Shown in pieces: positions 46,021 to 51,743 of a DNA stretch of 64,000 nucleotides; position 1 is the stretch's first letter; each line of letters starts with the position of its first letter. The stretch comes from Actinopolyspora mzabensis (GTDB taxonomy: Bacteria > Actinomycetota > Actinomycetes > Mycobacteriales > Pseudonocardiaceae): assembly GCF_900101095.1 (NCBI RefSeq), contig NZ_FNFM01000011.1, positions 62,001-126,000 on the forward strand, in the 5' to 3' direction. The notes under the pieces are model-generated. The model worked only from the letters and a program-made list of their open reading frames with translations. It was not told the DNA's origin and made no database searches. A program made the position numbers and the translations under genes.

Positions 46021-46375
46021 GGCACAAATTCTCCCAGCAGGCATTCGACTTCCCACAGGAGCGCGGAGCATCCCTACCTCGGGCCTACCTCGGGGCGGAG
46101 GACCCCTGCCTCCGGACGGAGCGGGTGGATCCCCGATCATCGGTTCCGCCGTCCCCAGGTCCCCACGCGACGGCGATCGACTAAGGTGCTCCGGGAGTGT
46201 GAGGTTACTCCCACCTGGAGGGGTCGGATCTCGCGGCGCGCGCCTGCCCTCACGCCGGGCGCTCCGGGTGCGCGGATGTGTTCGCACCCGGGACCGGTCA
46301 ACGTACGGGTGACGTGCTGTCCCAGCATGCGGATGAGCCTGGACCGCCCGATGCGTGCGTGGCACGCTGACGACC
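46021..46375. other. Divergent intergenic region between hemW and the sulfur operon
   Basis: Together with 46472-46705 this forms a 685-base non-coding stretch, interrupted by the leader peptide at 46376-46471. The hemW promoter and the promoter of the sulfite reductase transcript should lie here. No other structure was recognised. Confidence 0.5.
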
Positions 46376-46471
46376 ATGGACGCGACCCCCACCGAGCTGC
46401 TGCTGGTCGCCCGGCGTTACCTGGATCTACGACGGGTCTCCAGCGCGCTGTGCCGGAGCACGAGCTGTTGA
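46376..46471 (+). CDS. Cysteine-containing leader peptide upstream of sulfite reductase
   Basis: A 31-codon frame (MDATPTELLLVARR, then YLDLRRVSSALC, RSTSC and stop) lies 234 bases before the sulfite reductase gene. It has the shape of the small leader peptides found before sulfur assimilation operons in actinobacteria: an Arg-rich RRxxDLxRVxSAxC core with Cys codons at the end (codons 26 and 31). When charged tRNA-Cys is scarce, a ribosome stalled there could change the fold of the RNA ahead and permit expression of the cys genes. No good ribosome binding site precedes the ATG, so it may be leaderless. I could not fold the RNA to prove attenuation. Confidence 0.75.
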   Translation: MDATPTELLLVARRYLDLRRVSSALCRSTSC

Positions 46472-46705
46472 AGTTTCCCGTCCGTACCTGACGGGGTGCT
46501 CGCCCGGCGAATCCGCCGCGGGTGACACCTCCGGGGGCCGCGCCGAGTTGGTCGCCCGCGTCGGTCCGATCGGAAACTCACGGTATTTCCTGTCGCGTTT
46601 CGTGTCCGCATCCGATCCGGTGTGTCGGTAACCGGGTCGTGAGCACTCTTTTCCCGTAAAACTGTCGCGGCGTAGTCACGCCATGTCATCGCGGAGGTCG
46701 GACGA

Positions 46706-48418
46706 ATGGTCCCCCCGACGGAAGCACCGAGCCCCACACAACGCCGCGCACCCGCACGCAAGGGCAAGGGCCGCGCGGAGGGCCAGTGGGCGCTCGGTTA
46801 CCGCGAACCGCTGAACGGCAACGAGCAGTCCAAGAAGGACGACAATCCACTCAACGTCCGTGGTCGTATCGAGAACATCTACGCGCAGCGTGGCTTCGAC
46901 TCCATCGACCCCTCCGACCTGCGCGGTCGATTCCGCTGGTGGGGGCTCTACACGCAACGAGCTCCCGGCATTCCGGGCGCGCGGACCGGAACCATCGAAC
47001 CGGAGCAGCTGGACGACTCGTACTTCATGCTGCGCATCAGGGTCGACGGCGGCGCGCTGACCACCGAGCAGCTACGGGTGATCGGTGAGATCTCGCAGAC
47101 CTACGCCCGCGACACCGCCGACATCACCGACCGGCAGAACGTCCAGCTGCACTGGATCCGGGTGGAGGACATGCCCGCCATCTGGCAAAAGCTGGAGTCC
47201 GTAGGGCTGTACACCACCGAGGCGTGCGGTGACTGCCCCCGCGTCGTGCTCGGCTCCCCGGTGGCGGGCATCGCCGCCGACGAGATCGTCGACGCCACCC
47301 CGGCGATCAGGGAGATCACCGAACGCTACATCGGTGACGAATCACTTTCGAACCTGCCGCGCAAGTTCAAGACCGCCATCTCGGGTTCCCCGCGCCAGGA
47401 CGTGGTTCACGAGACGAACGACATCTCGCTCATCGGGGTGGAGCACCCCGAGCACGGTCCCGGCTTCGACTTGTGGGTGGGCGGTGGCCTGTCCACCAAC
47501 CCCAAGCTCGCGGTGCGCCTGGGCGCCTGGGTTCCGGTGGAGGAGGCCGCCGAGGTCTGGAACGCCGTGGTGCAGATCTTCCGGGACTACGGTTACCGCA
47601 GGCTGCGTAACCGGGCGAGGATGAAGTTCCTGGTATCGGACTGGGGGGCCGAGAAGTTCCGTGAGGTGTTGGAGAACGAGTACCTCGGCCGCGCGCTCAC
47701 CGACGGTCCGGCACCGCCGCTTCCGGACGGACCCCGTGACCACGTGGGGGTGCACGAGCAGGTCGACGGCAACTACTACGTCGGCGTGACCTCCGTGGCC
47801 GGCAGGGTCGACGGTTCCAAGCTGATCGAGGTCGCCAAGGCCGCCGAACGCGCGGGCTCGCGCCGGGTCCGCACCACCGTGGAACAGAACCTGCTGGTGC
47901 TCGACGTGCCCGGCTCCGAGGTGGAAAGCCTCGTCGCCGACTTGGACCGGCTCGACCTGCGGGCACGCCCCTCGTCCTGGCGACGCAGCGTCATGGCGTG
48001 CACGGGAATCGAGTTCTGTAAGCTGGCGATCGTCGAGACCAAGAACCGTGCCATGGAACTGGTCGAGGATCTGGAGCGCAGGCTCGACGACGTGCAGGGC
48101 GACATCGACAAACCCGTCACGGTCAACCTGAACGGCTGCCCGAACGCCTGCGCCCGCACCCAGGTCGCCGACATCGGCCTCAAGGGTCAGCTGGTGCAGG
48201 ACGAGGAGGGCAACCAGGTCGAGGGCTTCCAGGTACACCTTGGGGGCGGTCTCGGCAGGGACGCGGGTTTCGGACGCAAGATCCGGGGGCACAAGGTGAC
48301 TTCCGCCGAGGTGGGGGACTACGTGGAACGCCTGGTTCGTCGTTACGTGGAGCAGCGCGGCGAGGACGAGACCTTCGCCCAGTGGACGAAACGCGTCGGT
48401 GACGAGGCGCTAACGTGA
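46706..48418 (+). CDS. sir: Ferredoxin-dependent sulfite reductase
   Basis: This 570-residue siroheme/4Fe-4S reductase makes sulfide from sulfite. The cluster ligands are visible in the C-terminal half: ACTGIEFCKLA (two Cys) and NLNGCPNACARTQVAD (two Cys). NNPLNVRGRIENIYAQRGF and TDRQNVQLHWI are typical of the actinobacterial SirA/NirA group. Position ahead of cysH makes sulfite, not nitrite, the substrate. The start has GGAGG nine bases upstream. It overlaps the zinc-ribbon gene by four bases. Confidence 0.94.
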   Translation: MVPPTEAPSPTQRRAPARKGKGRAEGQWALGYREPLNGNEQSKKDDNPLNVRGRIENIYAQRGFDSIDPSDLRGRFRWWGLYTQRAPGIPGARTGTIEPEQLDDSYFMLRIRVDGGALTTEQLRVIGEISQTYARDTADITDRQNVQLHWIRVEDMPAIWQKLESVGLYTTEACGDCPRVVLGSPVAGIAADEIVDATPAIREITERYIGDESLSNLPRKFKTAISGSPRQDVVHETNDISLIGVEHPEHGPGFDLWVGGGLSTNPKLAVRLGAWVPVEEAAEVWNAVVQIFRDYGYRRLRNRARMKFLVSDWGAEKFREVLENEYLGRALTDGPAPPLPDGPRDHVGVHEQVDGNYYVGVTSVAGRVDGSKLIEVAKAAERAGSRRVRTTVEQNLLVLDVPGSEVESLVADLDRLDLRARPSSWRRSVMACTGIEFCKLAIVETKNRAMELVEDLERRLDDVQGDIDKPVTVNLNGCPNACARTQVADIGLKGQLVQDEEGNQVEGFQVHLGGGLGRDAGFGRKIRGHKVTSAEVGDYVERLVRRYVEQRGEDETFAQWTKRVGDEALT

Positions 48419-48606
48419 GCGGGGGGCGTTCGGCAGAACCGGGTCCCGAGGGCAGGGCCGTTCCGTTCTACTGCCCGTACTGCGGTGACGAGGAACTCAC
48501 ACCGGAGGCTGAACCCGTGGGCGCGTGGAAATGTCAGGCGTGCCGTCGCGTGTTCACGGTACGACTGGCCGGGTTGGCGTTGACCGAGGAGGACGAAGAA
48601 CCATGA
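48415..48606 (+). CDS. Small zinc-ribbon protein of the sulfate assimilation operon
   Basis: This 63-residue protein holds two Cys pairs (FYCPYCGDEEL and WKCQACRRVF) that form a zinc ribbon. It is overlapped at both ends, by four bases with sir and four bases with cysH. In many actinobacteria a small protein of this kind sits at this place. It may help cluster or electron transfer to APS reductase, but its job has not been read from sequence. The start is GTG. Confidence 0.85.
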   Translation: MSGGRSAEPGPEGRAVPFYCPYCGDEELTPEAEPVGAWKCQACRRVFTVRLAGLALTEEDEEP

Positions 48607-49328
48607 CCACCGACAGCACTTCCCGAATCGGCTTTCGACGTGGTGACGACGAACTCCGCGCTCTGGCGGAGGAGGCCTCCGAGCAACTCGCCGAGTCGAG
48701 CACATCGGAGGTACTCGACTGGGCGGCCCGCACGTTCGGCGACAATCTGATCATGGCCTCCAATATGGAGGACGCCTCGTTGATAGACCTGGTCTCCAAG
48801 GTCCAGCCGGGCGTGGACGTGTTGTTCCTGGAGACCGGTTACCACTTCGCCGAGACGCTCGGCACCCGCGACGCGGTCGCGCAGACCTACGACGTCAACA
48901 TCATCGACGCGATGCCCGAACAGACGGTCGAACAGCAGGACGCCACCGAGGGGGCGAGGCTCTACGAACGGGACCCCGGTCGGTGCTGCCACCTGCGCAA
49001 GGTTCTTCCGCTACGCAACACGCTGGCCCGCTACGAGGCCTGGATCACCGGACTGCGACGCGTGGATTCGCCGAGCAGGGCCGACACTCCCCTCGTGACC
49101 TGGGACGAACGCAACAACCTCGTGAAGGTGAATCCGCTCGCGGCGTGGACCGACGAGGACATGGACAATTACATCGCCGAGCACGATGTGCTGGTGAATC
49201 CCCTGGTCCCCGCCGGCTTTCCCTCGATCGGGTGTCAGCCGTGCACCGCCAAGCCCGCACCAGGCGCGGATCGGCGCAGTGGCCGCTGGGCCGGTAGCAC
49301 GAAGACGGAGTGCGGGTTGCACGCCTAA
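48603..49328 (+). CDS. cysH: Adenylylsulfate (APS) reductase
   Basis: This 241-residue enzyme reduces APS to sulfite with thioredoxin-like donors. The 4Fe-4S ligands C128-C129 (GRCCHLRK) and C211/C214 (GCQPCTAK) mark it as an APS reductase, not a PAPS reductase. C237 in ECGLH is the catalytic Cys at the C-terminus. It agrees with the absence of cysC in this cluster. It follows the zinc-ribbon gene with overlap. Confidence 0.95.
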   Translation: MTTDSTSRIGFRRGDDELRALAEEASEQLAESSTSEVLDWAARTFGDNLIMASNMEDASLIDLVSKVQPGVDVLFLETGYHFAETLGTRDAVAQTYDVNIIDAMPEQTVEQQDATEGARLYERDPGRCCHLRKVLPLRNTLARYEAWITGLRRVDSPSRADTPLVTWDERNNLVKVNPLAAWTDEDMDNYIAEHDVLVNPLVPAGFPSIGCQPCTAKPAPGADRRSGRWAGSTKTECGLHA

Positions 49329-49425: not shown

Positions 49426-50388
49426 ATGACGACGGAAGCGATCATGGATCAAAATCTCGACCTACCGGAAGATCCGGCGACATCCGAGGCACCACCACAA
49501 GTGGACAACCTCGATGCGCTGGAGTCCGAGGCGATCCACATCTTCCGGGAGGTCGCTGGGGAGTTCGATCGCCCGGTGATCCTGTTCTCCGGAGGCAAGG
49601 ATTCCACGGTGCTGCTGCACCTGGCACTGAAGGCGTTCCGGCCCGCACCCGTACCGTTCCCGCTGCTGCACGTGGACACCGGACACAACTTCGAGGAAGT
49701 GCTGCGGTTCCGCGACGAGCTGGTCAGTCGCCACGAGCTGCGTCTGGTCGTGGCCAGGGTCCAGGACTGGATCGACGACGGCAGGCTCAGCGAACGGCCG
49801 GACGGTACCCGCAATCCGCTGCAGACGCAGCCGCTGCTGGAGGCGATCGAGCAGAACCGCTTCGACGCCGTGTTCGGCGGCGGCAGGCGTGACGAGGAGC
49901 GTGCCCGCGCCAAGGAGCGCGTCTTCAGCCTGCGCGACGCCTTCGGCCAGTGGGATCCGCGCAGGCAGCGCCCCGAGTTGTGGAACCTCTACAACGGCAA
50001 GCACCGGGCGGGCGAGCACATGCGGGTCTTCCCGCTGTCCAACTGGACCGAGCTGGACGTGTGGCGCTACATCCAGCGCGAGAAGATCGAGCTCTCCAAC
50101 CTCTACTACGCCCACCGCAGGGAAGTCTTCCATCGGGACGGCATGTGGCTGACCTCCGGCCCGTGGGGCGGGCCACGCGAGGGCGAGGAGGTTCACGAGA
50201 AGACGGTTCGCTACCGCACCATCGGGGACGGGTCGTGCACCGGCGCGGTTGAGTCCGAGGCGTACACGGTGGACGACGTGATCGCCGAGGTCGCCGCCAG
50301 CCACCTCACGGAGCGAGGGGCGACCCGAGCCGACGACAGGATGTCCGAGGCAGCCATGGAGGACCGTAAGCGGGAGGGCTACTTCTGA
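49426..50388 (+). CDS. cysD: Sulfate adenylyltransferase, small subunit
   Basis: This 320-residue PP-loop ATPase activates sulfate to APS with CysN. The PP-loop ILFSGGKDSTVLLHLA is clear, and FPLLHVDTGHNF, LYNGKHRAGEHMRVFPLSNWTELDVW are typical. Start is ATG 49426; ATG 49444 is also possible. The stop overlaps the cysN start (TGATG). It lies 97 bases after cysH, within one probable transcript. Confidence 0.95.
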   Translation: MTTEAIMDQNLDLPEDPATSEAPPQVDNLDALESEAIHIFREVAGEFDRPVILFSGGKDSTVLLHLALKAFRPAPVPFPLLHVDTGHNFEEVLRFRDELVSRHELRLVVARVQDWIDDGRLSERPDGTRNPLQTQPLLEAIEQNRFDAVFGGGRRDEERARAKERVFSLRDAFGQWDPRRQRPELWNLYNGKHRAGEHMRVFPLSNWTELDVWRYIQREKIELSNLYYAHRREVFHRDGMWLTSGPWGGPREGEEVHEKTVRYRTIGDGSCTGAVESEAYTVDDVIAEVAASHLTERGATRADDRMSEAAMEDRKREGYF

Positions 50389-51743
50389 TGAGCAACGACA
50401 CCGAAACCCTCACCCGGTTCGCCCCCGACAGCGGGACCGAAGTGGCGCTTCCGGTGCACACCGACCTGTTGCGGCTGGCCACAGCGGGGTCGGTGGACGA
50501 CGGCAAGAGCACACTGGTGGGACGACTGCTGCACGACACCAAGTCGGTGCTGGCCGACCAGCTCGACGCGGTACACCGTGCCAGCGCCGACCGCGGGCTG
50601 AGCACCCCGGACCTGTCGTTACTGGTCGACGGGCTGCGCGCGGAGCGCGAGCAGGGCATCACCATCGATGTCGCCTACCGCTACTTCGCGACCGGCAGGC
50701 GCACTTTCGTGCTGGCCGACACCCCCGGGCACGTGCAGTACACCAGGAACACCGTCACCGGTGCCTCCACGGCGCAGCTCGCGGTGCTGCTGGTCGACGC
50801 CCGCAAGGGCGTGGTGGAACAGACCAGGAGGCACGCCGCGGTACTGGCGCTGCTCGGCGTACCGCGACTGGTGCTGGCGGTCAACAAGATCGACATGGTC
50901 GACTTCGACGAGTCGGTGCACACCGCCATCGCCCAGGACTTCGCGCAGCACGCCAGGGCCCTGGGTTACTCCGACGAGGACGTTGTCACGATCCCGGTTT
51001 CGGCACTGCACGGCGACAACGTCGTGGAGCGTTCCGAGCGCACGCCCTGGTACGAGGGCCCCGCCCTGCTGGAGCACCTGGAGACCGTTCCGGTCGCTCC
51101 GGACCCGCACGACGTTCCGTTCCGATTGCCGGTGCAGTACGTGATCCGGCCGCGCACCGCCGACCACCCGGACTACCGCGGTTACGCGGGTCAGGTCGCC
51201 GCGGGAGTGGTCAACGAGGGCGACGAGGTGGTGGTGCTCCCGAGCGGGGCACGCAGCAGGGTCTCCATGGTGGACACCCCGGACGGCCGGGCGCAGAGCG
51301 CGGCGGCCGGACGTTCGATCACCGTGCTGCTGGAGGACGACCTGGACATCGCACGCGGCGACGTCCTCGTCTCGGCGGAGGAACAACCCCGGGTGACCGA
51401 CGAGTTCGACGCCACGGTCTGCTGGCTCGCGGAGAAGCCCCTCGCGCCGAACACGAAGGTTCAGATCAAGCACGGTGCCCGGACCGTGCAGGCCATGGCC
51501 ACCGAACTGGCCACCCGCTTCGACGAGCAGGAACTGTCGAGCGTGGACGCCCCGGAAAAGCTGGAGCTCAACGAGATCGGCAAGATCCGGTTCCGCACCT
51601 CGGAGTCGTTGCCGATCGACGACTACGCGGACAGCAGGCGCACCGGTTCGTTCATCGTGCTCGACCCCTCCGACGGTTCCACGCTCGCGGCGGGCCTGAT
51701 CGGTGTTCCGCTGGCCCCGCTGGCCTCGGCAGTGACTCGATGA
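50388..51743 (+). CDS. cysN: Sulfate adenylyltransferase, large GTPase subunit
   Basis: This 451-residue GTPase couples GTP hydrolysis to APS formation by CysD. G1 is SVDDGKSTLVGRL, G3 DTPGHVQYTRNTVTGAS and G4 NKIDMV, with EF-Tu-like beta-barrels after about residue 220. It stops before any APS kinase (CysC) domain. APS therefore passes directly to CysH, in agreement with its APS-type active site. Confidence 0.95.
   Translation: MSNDTETLTRFAPDSGTEVALPVHTDLLRLATAGSVDDGKSTLVGRLLHDTKSVLADQLDAVHRASADRGLSTPDLSLLVDGLRAEREQGITIDVAYRYFATGRRTFVLADTPGHVQYTRNTVTGASTAQLAVLLVDARKGVVEQTRRHAAVLALLGVPRLVLAVNKIDMVDFDESVHTAIAQDFAQHARALGYSDEDVVTIPVSALHGDNVVERSERTPWYEGPALLEHLETVPVAPDPHDVPFRLPVQYVIRPRTADHPDYRGYAGQVAAGVVNEGDEVVVLPSGARSRVSMVDTPDGRAQSAAAGRSITVLLEDDLDIARGDVLVSAEEQPRVTDEFDATVCWLAEKPLAPNTKVQIKHGARTVQAMATELATRFDEQELSSVDAPEKLELNEIGKIRFRTSESLPIDDYADSRRTGSFIVLDPSDGSTLAAGLIGVPLAPLASAVTR

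Follow-up and report, generated by a model that had tools for sequence, protein, structure and literature searches.

A conserved leader peptide of a known actinobacterial family precedes the reductase-cysHDN operon of Actinopolyspora mzabensis and is probably a cysteine-responsive attenuator

Results

The operon and its leader frame

The stretch of DNA analyzed here (the window) comprises 64,000 nucleotides of Actinopolyspora mzabensis (NCBI RefSeq assembly GCF_900101095.1, contig NZ_FNFM01000011.1, positions 62,001 to 126,000), on the forward strand of which a short leader frame, a 234-nt spacer, a reductase gene with its ATG at 46706, cysH, cysD and cysN follow one another in this order. The reductase gene (46706..48418), with its Shine-Dalgarno (SD) sequence GGAGG at 46693..46697 (GGAGG is found in 67 of 75 orthologues), encodes a nitrite/sulfite reductase family protein, probably an assimilatory sulfite reductase, which is 98% identical to its A. 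alba counterpart. It is followed by cysH (phosphoadenylyl-sulfate reductase, 48525..49328, start codon uncertain; PRK02090, 260.3 bits at a cut-off of 154), cysD (sulfate adenylyltransferase small subunit, 49426..50388; TIGR02039, 467.6 bits at a cut-off of 396.6) and cysN (sulfate adenylyltransferase large subunit, 50388..51743; TIGR02034, 550.5 bits at a cut-off of 336.1), after which comes a gene with a weak, below-cut-off resemblance to sirohydrochlorin chelatases. Since none of the NCBIfam equivalogs reaches its cut-off with the reductase (the best, PRK09566, scores 384 of the 594 bits), the name "sulfite reductase", as used in a preliminary description of this locus, derives from protein-family membership and from the downstream cysH-cysD-cysN genes, and has to be taken with that qualification.

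The leader frame (46376..46471, 31 codons and a stop) translates as MDATPTELLLVARRYLDLRRVSSALCRSTSC, and the features for which it was initially singled out, namely, its length, the DLRRVSSALC core, a Cys as the last codon and the 234 nt separating it from the reductase ATG, could all be confirmed from the sequence. The peptide matches the NCBIfam model NF042934 (cis_reg_atten, "putative leader peptide") with 28.2 bits at a cut-off of 27, the alignment spanning all 19 model positions, and its score in a whole-genome search (27.3 bits) is still above that cut-off. Residues 10-27 also resemble NF042936 (Ms4527A family Cys-rich leader peptide; 23.9 bits, below the cut-off of 45), the Ms5788A model gives 14 bits (cut-off likewise 45), and neither a Pfam search with the peptide nor an Rfam search of the leader region returned a match. 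The earlier remark that common gene callers would miss so short a frame is only partly apt, as the NCBI protein-family models do cover this leader family. Judging by these comparisons, the frame is a further member of a known actinobacterial leader-peptide family and not a chance frame; it is real and conserved, and very probably translated.

Conservation of the leader and its linkage to the reductase

Of 150 genomes from the window's taxonomic family (its own genome included), 125 contain a match to the leader peptide at E<=0.01, while NF042934 is matched over its cut-off in 54 of 60 genomes of that family, in at least 33 of 298 genomes drawn across the phylum (with no more than 29 candidates scored in each), and in none of 14 control genomes. 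Ninety leader loci were examined, one per genome and the window among them (an initial 30 plus 60 added in score order, second copies and weaker matches being left out of this set), and the reductase was found downstream of the leader in 89 of these, locus L118 being the exception.

The linkage also holds when approached from the reductase: a pattern describing the leader core matches within the upstream 450 nt in 68 of the best 80 named reductase loci, whereas it matches none of 79 reverse complements and none of 800 mononucleotide shuffles. The 12 loci lacking it belong to Kribbella (six), Aeromicrobium (three), Actinomycetospora (one) and Streptomyces (one), and the twelfth is L171, where the upstream DNA is too short for this test. 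The Kribbella (L150, L173, L175, L176, L177, L186) and Aeromicrobium (L148, L182, L205) reductases have no leader of the pattern type upstream, and may use a different kind of leader or of control. Twenty of the 25 family genomes without an E<=0.01 peptide match were re-examined from the reductase side, and 13 of the 19 testable loci turned out to have a leader by the core pattern. As two of the six that did not (G006 and G034) carry NF042934 matches over the cut-off at about 150 nt or less from the reductase start, the core pattern undercounts leaders. The proposal that the frame is of the actinobacterial sulfur-operon leader type is, hence, strongly supported by the above-cut-off NF042934 match, by the wide occurrence of matches in the family and by the recovery of leaders from the reductase side; had the frame or its Cys codons not been conserved in relatives, the proposal would have been in trouble, and both the frame and its internal Cys codon are conserved.

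The leader start and upstream elements

Upstream of the frame, a -35-like hexamer TGGACC (46340..46345) and a -10-like hexamer CACGCT (46363..46368) are arranged as TGGACC-N17-CACGCT-N7-ATG. Among 86 distinct upstreams, for which leader starts were picked by a rule preferring ATG, the corresponding places hold T[GA]GACC in 66 (0.6 in shuffles) and [CT]ANNCT in 82 (1.8 in shuffles), the -10-like motif in those 82 lying 6-7 nt before the start. An SD-like motif before the leader start is found in none of the 86, compared with 8.35 in shuffles. Both hexamers are to be regarded as sub-consensus, because a strict sigma-70 scan at the leader reports no promoter. Such a layout looks leaderless: the transcript would begin at the ATG itself and not downstream of 46471, where a start would have told against the leader reading. 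Further upstream, the conserved element TCCCAGCATGCGGATG (46320..46335), a putative regulator site, contains T[CT][CT]CA, which recurs in 84 of the 86 upstreams (2.9 in shuffles).

The conserved cysteine and the lineage-specific one

The leader has two separate Cys codons, and the preliminary description laid its emphasis on the terminal one. The comparison of Cys codon placement in relatives, which it had itself put forward as a check, finds a conserved Cys codon, though at the internal position: all 89 reductase-linked loci have the Cys within the SA[LMI]C core, whereas a terminal Cys is a minority trait, seen in 5 of them (L001, L010, L011, L036 and L076). Cys26 of SSALC (codon TGC, 46451..46453) is Cys in 76 of 76 and TGC in 69 of 76 distinct leaders, and is the conserved putative sensor. 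Cys31 (codon TGT, 46466..46468) is shared with two of five congeners, and in the alignment of six Actinopolyspora the three species having it are those sharing an insertion of about 120 nt (46467..46586 in the window), which creates the Cys31-stop end. The frame accordingly ends GAC-TAG in L012, GAC-TGT-TGA in the two sister species and AGC-TGT-TGA in the window, and the spacer measures 234-235 nt with the insertion as opposed to 113-121 nt in the other congeners. The insertion was considered as a possible repeat and rejected as such, its segment 46472-46590 being present as a single copy in the genome and its fold not being unusual (z -0.76). From the conservation of the internal Cys, together with the confinement of Cys31 to three insertion-bearing species, Cys26 emerges as the candidate sensor, and Cys31, as far as the alignments tell, is a lineage accident or a late addition.

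Selection on the peptide core

All 89 loci had the anchoring core pattern, and pN/pS was estimated on 76 distinct leaders aligned at the internal Cys (position 0), the counts being pairwise sums over sequences that are not independent. The ratio is 0.24 over the core LVARRYLDLRRVSSALC (codons -16 to 0), falling to 0.14 in RRHVD and 0.17 in RVSSALC, while the N-terminal part has 0.76 and the tail 0.87. L-16, R-13, R-12, D-9, R-6, S-3, A-2 and C0 are invariant in this set, synonymous codons vary at most of the conserved core positions, and variation at -2 (SSSLC, NSDLC) is seen in the leaders that the reductase-side search added. Selection, by these estimates, is acting on the peptide and stops at the Cys. 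RRxVDLxR persists in relatives in which a poly-Cys run has taken the place of SSALC, and the leaders of some others terminate right at the Cys (SAIC-stop). Among side cases, the leader of L233 ends RVCSAI-stop, its core Cys lying four residues closer to the N terminus, and that of L252 ends RVSSAISLV-stop, with a core lacking Cys.

Some codons in and next to the core are biased, namely, TCC at -4 (48/54, p=5e-11) and CGT at +1 (25/63, p=8e-16), both p-values being too small as the sequences are not independent, as well as GCG at -2 (53/76), CGC at -12 (62/74) and GAT at -9 (22/76). AGC at -3 (75/76) was also entertained as an RNA constraint and set aside: compared with AGY usage, the signal is weak (background 0.93, p=0.04), because a fixed Ser hardly switches between TCN and AGY. 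In the literature searched, to which most subscription papers do not belong, no description of the conserved core as functional was recognized, which is a weak negative.

Codon usage at the sensor position

A sensor that measures Cys decoding might be expected to prefer a rare codon. Outside the reductase leaders of the window's family, this is what is seen: the other-operon leaders of the family have TGT in 25 of 37 cases, whereas T ends 27 of the 113 remaining codons with a final pyrimidine (Fisher p=2.7e-6). In leaders from beyond the family, a set that counts reductase leaders but omits nine poly-Cys loci, the figures are 38 of 50 and 28 of 151 (p=2.8e-13). The distinct Streptomyces reductase leaders have TGT at the sensor in 22 of 22 sequences (38 loci, among L143-L204), while the reductase genes of the same loci use TGT for 1 of their 119 Cys codons. 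The rare codons TTG at -16 and AGT at -14 are nearly fixed in the Streptomyces leaders too, and since several other codons are also fixed, the constraint there extends beyond the Cys codon. In the reductase leaders of the window's own family no TGT enrichment is found (7/76 against a background of 22/296); in the long open reading frames of the window, TGT accounts for 2 of 36 Cys codons. The TGT bias would fit sensing by Cys decoding, and its absence from the reductase leaders of the window's family counts against a simple general rule.

Other leader copies

Three places in the window's genome pass the NF042934 cut-off in a whole-genome search. Apart from the leader described here, one precedes a DUF4395 gene together with a sulfurtransferase-like gene (which scores 108.9 bits with NCBIfam at a cut-off of 250), and the other a sodium:dicarboxylate symporter gene. 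Many genomes likewise have several leader copies each, before different sulfur genes, and related leaders precede ThiS/CysO-type, PALP, cysteine dioxygenase, TauE, rhodanese and Cys/Met PLP-enzyme genes (one example each). The leaders before TauE/SafE-like genes (L279, L289, L293, L294, L300, L306, L307 and L311, assigned by Pfam for L311 and by resemblance of the protein start for the remainder) all have TGC as the sensor codon, whereas TGT prevails in the leaders of symporter and sulfurtransferase genes.

The spacer and the reductase ribosome-binding site

The preliminary description proposed looking for alternative hairpins between the leader and the reductase, an idea that is not supported by any of three lines of evidence. 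Firstly, a simple consensus scan found no terminator-like site in 46100-46900. Secondly, the reductase SD is mostly paired in the thermodynamic model (mean access 0.215 over 75 orthologues), and a ribosome stalled at Cys26 in this model fails to free the reductase ribosome-binding site, the mean SD access being 0.221 with a ribosome at the Cys, 0.228 with one at the stop codon and 0.206 with one at a control position; gains above 0.1 were seen in 6, 10 and 4 of the 75 orthologues, respectively. Thirdly, synonymous codon choice carries no pairing signal. RNAalifold on 64 sequences had proposed a UCUCC:GGAGG pairing of the leader core with the reductase SD, which was rejected upon finding a mean rank of 0.47 (p=0.4, 71 orthologues); GTC at -5 not being preferred (41/74, background 0.49) also speaks against this pairing. 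Pairing between the leader core and the spacer was rejected as well, the mean rank of 0.60 being weaker than random (p=0.009, 71 orthologues).

The spacer itself contains a hairpin, CGATCCGGT/ACCGGGTCG (46613..46639; z -2.85 for 46605-46645, with 3 of 200 shuffles as good), in which paired changes can be read by eye among the congeners L012-L014. It differs from the GC-rich hairpin that occupies the first part of the spacer in other genera. For the latter, 56 sequences with 95-130-nt spacers, the congeners L012-L014 being left out, have 80.4% of cells paired as opposed to 75.6% in shuffles, a covariation score of 0.196 as opposed to 0.139, and 34 cells changed on both sides as opposed to 17.6 (none of 500 shuffles reaching any of these values, a control that is inflated by related sequences), whereas the number of pairs changed on both sides (4 vs. 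3.2; 180/500 shuffles) and of further pair types (12 vs. 11.8; 291/500) are not outstanding. The covariation support for the hairpin of other genera is, on these alignments, moderate.

Discussion

A cysteine-responsive, ribosome-mediated attenuator seems to be the best explanation for this leader, and one that we hold with considerable, though not complete, confidence. It is favored by the NF042934 match, the linkage to the reductase, the selection on the core, the leaderless-type upstream and the sulfur-gene neighbors of the other copies, and the TGT enrichment at the sensor of other leaders may be counted for it, too, as this is expected if Cys decoding is what is measured. Leaders of this actinobacterial family presumably raise the expression of sulfur genes under cysteine shortage. 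In A. mzabensis, transcription would start at or beside the AUG, and a ribosome would begin on the leaderless end and translate up to Cys26, where it would stall whenever charged Cys-tRNA is scarce; the stall would then change events in the spacer and thereby raise the expression of reductase-cysHDN. The sensor half of this scheme is supported by the comparisons above, and the response to cysteine is presumed by analogy with mycobacterial work.

As for the output step, that it consists in reductase translation, regulated via RNA structure around the ribosome-binding site as reported for mycobacteria, comes near to an even bet; Rho-type premature termination is a serious candidate that we would, nevertheless, hesitate to back; and something else, e.g., RNA stability, appears rather improbable. 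Several observations weigh against the attenuator as a whole: the reductase leaders of the window's family show no rare-codon signature, for they mostly have the common TGC at Cys26; there is a single conserved Cys; the modelled access to the ribosome-binding site hardly changes and a terminator was not found in the scanned region; and plain codon sensing does not need such strong conservation of the residues other than Cys.

That last point leads to a special form of the attenuator explanation, the odds of which overlap with those given above: a nascent-chain-assisted sensor, in which the core LVxRRxVDxxRVxSAxC would act from the exit tunnel and prime or hold the stall at the Cys codon, with Cys-tRNA or a cysteine-related small molecule being read by the peptide-slowed ribosome. 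Purifying selection on a 17-residue stretch ending at the Cys and much weaker on either side, the eight invariant residues in 76 distinct sequences, the retention of RRxVDLxR where SSALC has become a poly-Cys run and the leaders ending right at the Cys all speak for such a sensor. The same selection signal would, however, come from a peptide that has a separate function, the later-found leaders do vary at -2, and the TGT bias of other lineages, while compatible with both, favors codon sensing; all in all, this form is put forward tentatively, as a credible idea on which we would not stake much. A still bolder version, which we regard as somewhat doubtful, would have the whole DLRRVSSALC family be nascent-chain-assisted cysteine sensors, in which the 17-residue peptide and a single Cys codon together confer hypersensitivity to Cys-tRNA and UGU tunes many operons. 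If true, the poly-Cys mycobacterial leaders would be just one form within a wider actinobacterial family of arrest peptides, and this family would tie many sulfur operons to one signal.

Outside the attenuator explanations, a transcription factor might act at the conserved TCCCA...CGG element, the leader merely marking the 5' end of the transcript. The occurrence of TCCCA/TCTCA in nearly all distinct upstreams speaks for a regulator, yet this leaves the selection on the leader peptide unexplained, and we deem it quite unlikely as an account of the leader; both layers, the upstream regulator and the leader, may exist. Very unlikely is a functional microprotein acting in trans, for which the position before sulfur genes would reflect co-expression only: it would account for peptide-level selection, but selection on the core reaches no further than the Cys, the tail varies freely, in some members the stop codon directly follows the Cys, and many genomes have several copies before different sulfur genes. 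A chance frame or RNA-only element, which could draw on the third-position biases (TCC at -4, GCG at -2, CGC at -12, GAT at -9 and CGT at +1) and on some covariation in the spacer hairpin, can practically be discounted given the core pN/pS, the varied synonymous codons at most conserved positions, the absence of the core pattern from all of the shuffles and a synonymous choice that does not favor pairing.

With the attenuator as the preferred reading, the Actinopolyspora reductase-cysHDN operon joins the actinobacterial set of cysteine-leader operons, with the relevant cysteine corrected. Selection on a 17-residue peptide up to a single Cys, combined with rare TGT codons at the sensor of Streptomyces reductase leaders and of many other leaders but not of this family's reductase leaders, also makes it possible to test whether codon supply suffices for reading cysteine or whether the nascent peptide takes part as well.

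Comparison with known systems

Leaders of this general kind have been reported before. An earlier proposal came from ribosome profiling (PMC4633059), and the polycysteine leaderless short ORFs of mycobacteria were described by Canestrari et al. 2020 (as cited in PMC13236596, PMC9094748 and PMC9031893); in PMC13236596, PMC9031893 and PMC9094748, the M. smegmatis poly-Cys leaders are presented as cysteine-responsive and as acting by translation attenuation. The window leader is like these in its first position before sulfur genes and, judging by its upstream motifs, may be so in a leaderless start, and the poly-Cys relatives found in this analysis share its RRxVDLxR core. It differs in that the mycobacterial ORFs have a Cys run, whereas it has two Cys codons set apart, of which only Cys26 is conserved. 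The release of the ribosome-binding site by a stall, as reported for mycobacteria, is not reproduced for window-type leaders in the thermodynamic model. The spacers of window-type leaders measure 36-183 nt under the start-picking rule, while those of the window and its two sister species reach 234-235 nt.

The trp-type transcription attenuator has an intrinsic terminator between the leader and the first gene, and the scan of 46100-46900 found none in the window. Closer in this respect are the candidate leader peptides of cys operons put forward by Seliverstov et al. 2005 (PMC1262725) from Mycobacterium, Propionibacterium acnes and Bifidobacterium longum, for which, in the text available, a terminator was likewise not found and Rho is one suggested possibility; these, too, are short frames before cys genes, with runs of Cys codons near the stop, unlike the window leader. 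The attenuator table for S. lividans TK24 in the available part of PMC8079986 contains eight leaders, in none of which was the window-leader core spotted by eye.

Among the leaders covered by protein-family models, those of the Ms4527A family (NF042936) are alike over residues 10-27, the window leader scoring below their cut-off and having one conserved Cys. The closest relatives are those of NF042934, a family named from annotation and with a putative function: the window leader scores above its curated cut-off, no difference in kind between the two was found, and the relatives likewise stand before sulfur genes in actinobacteria.
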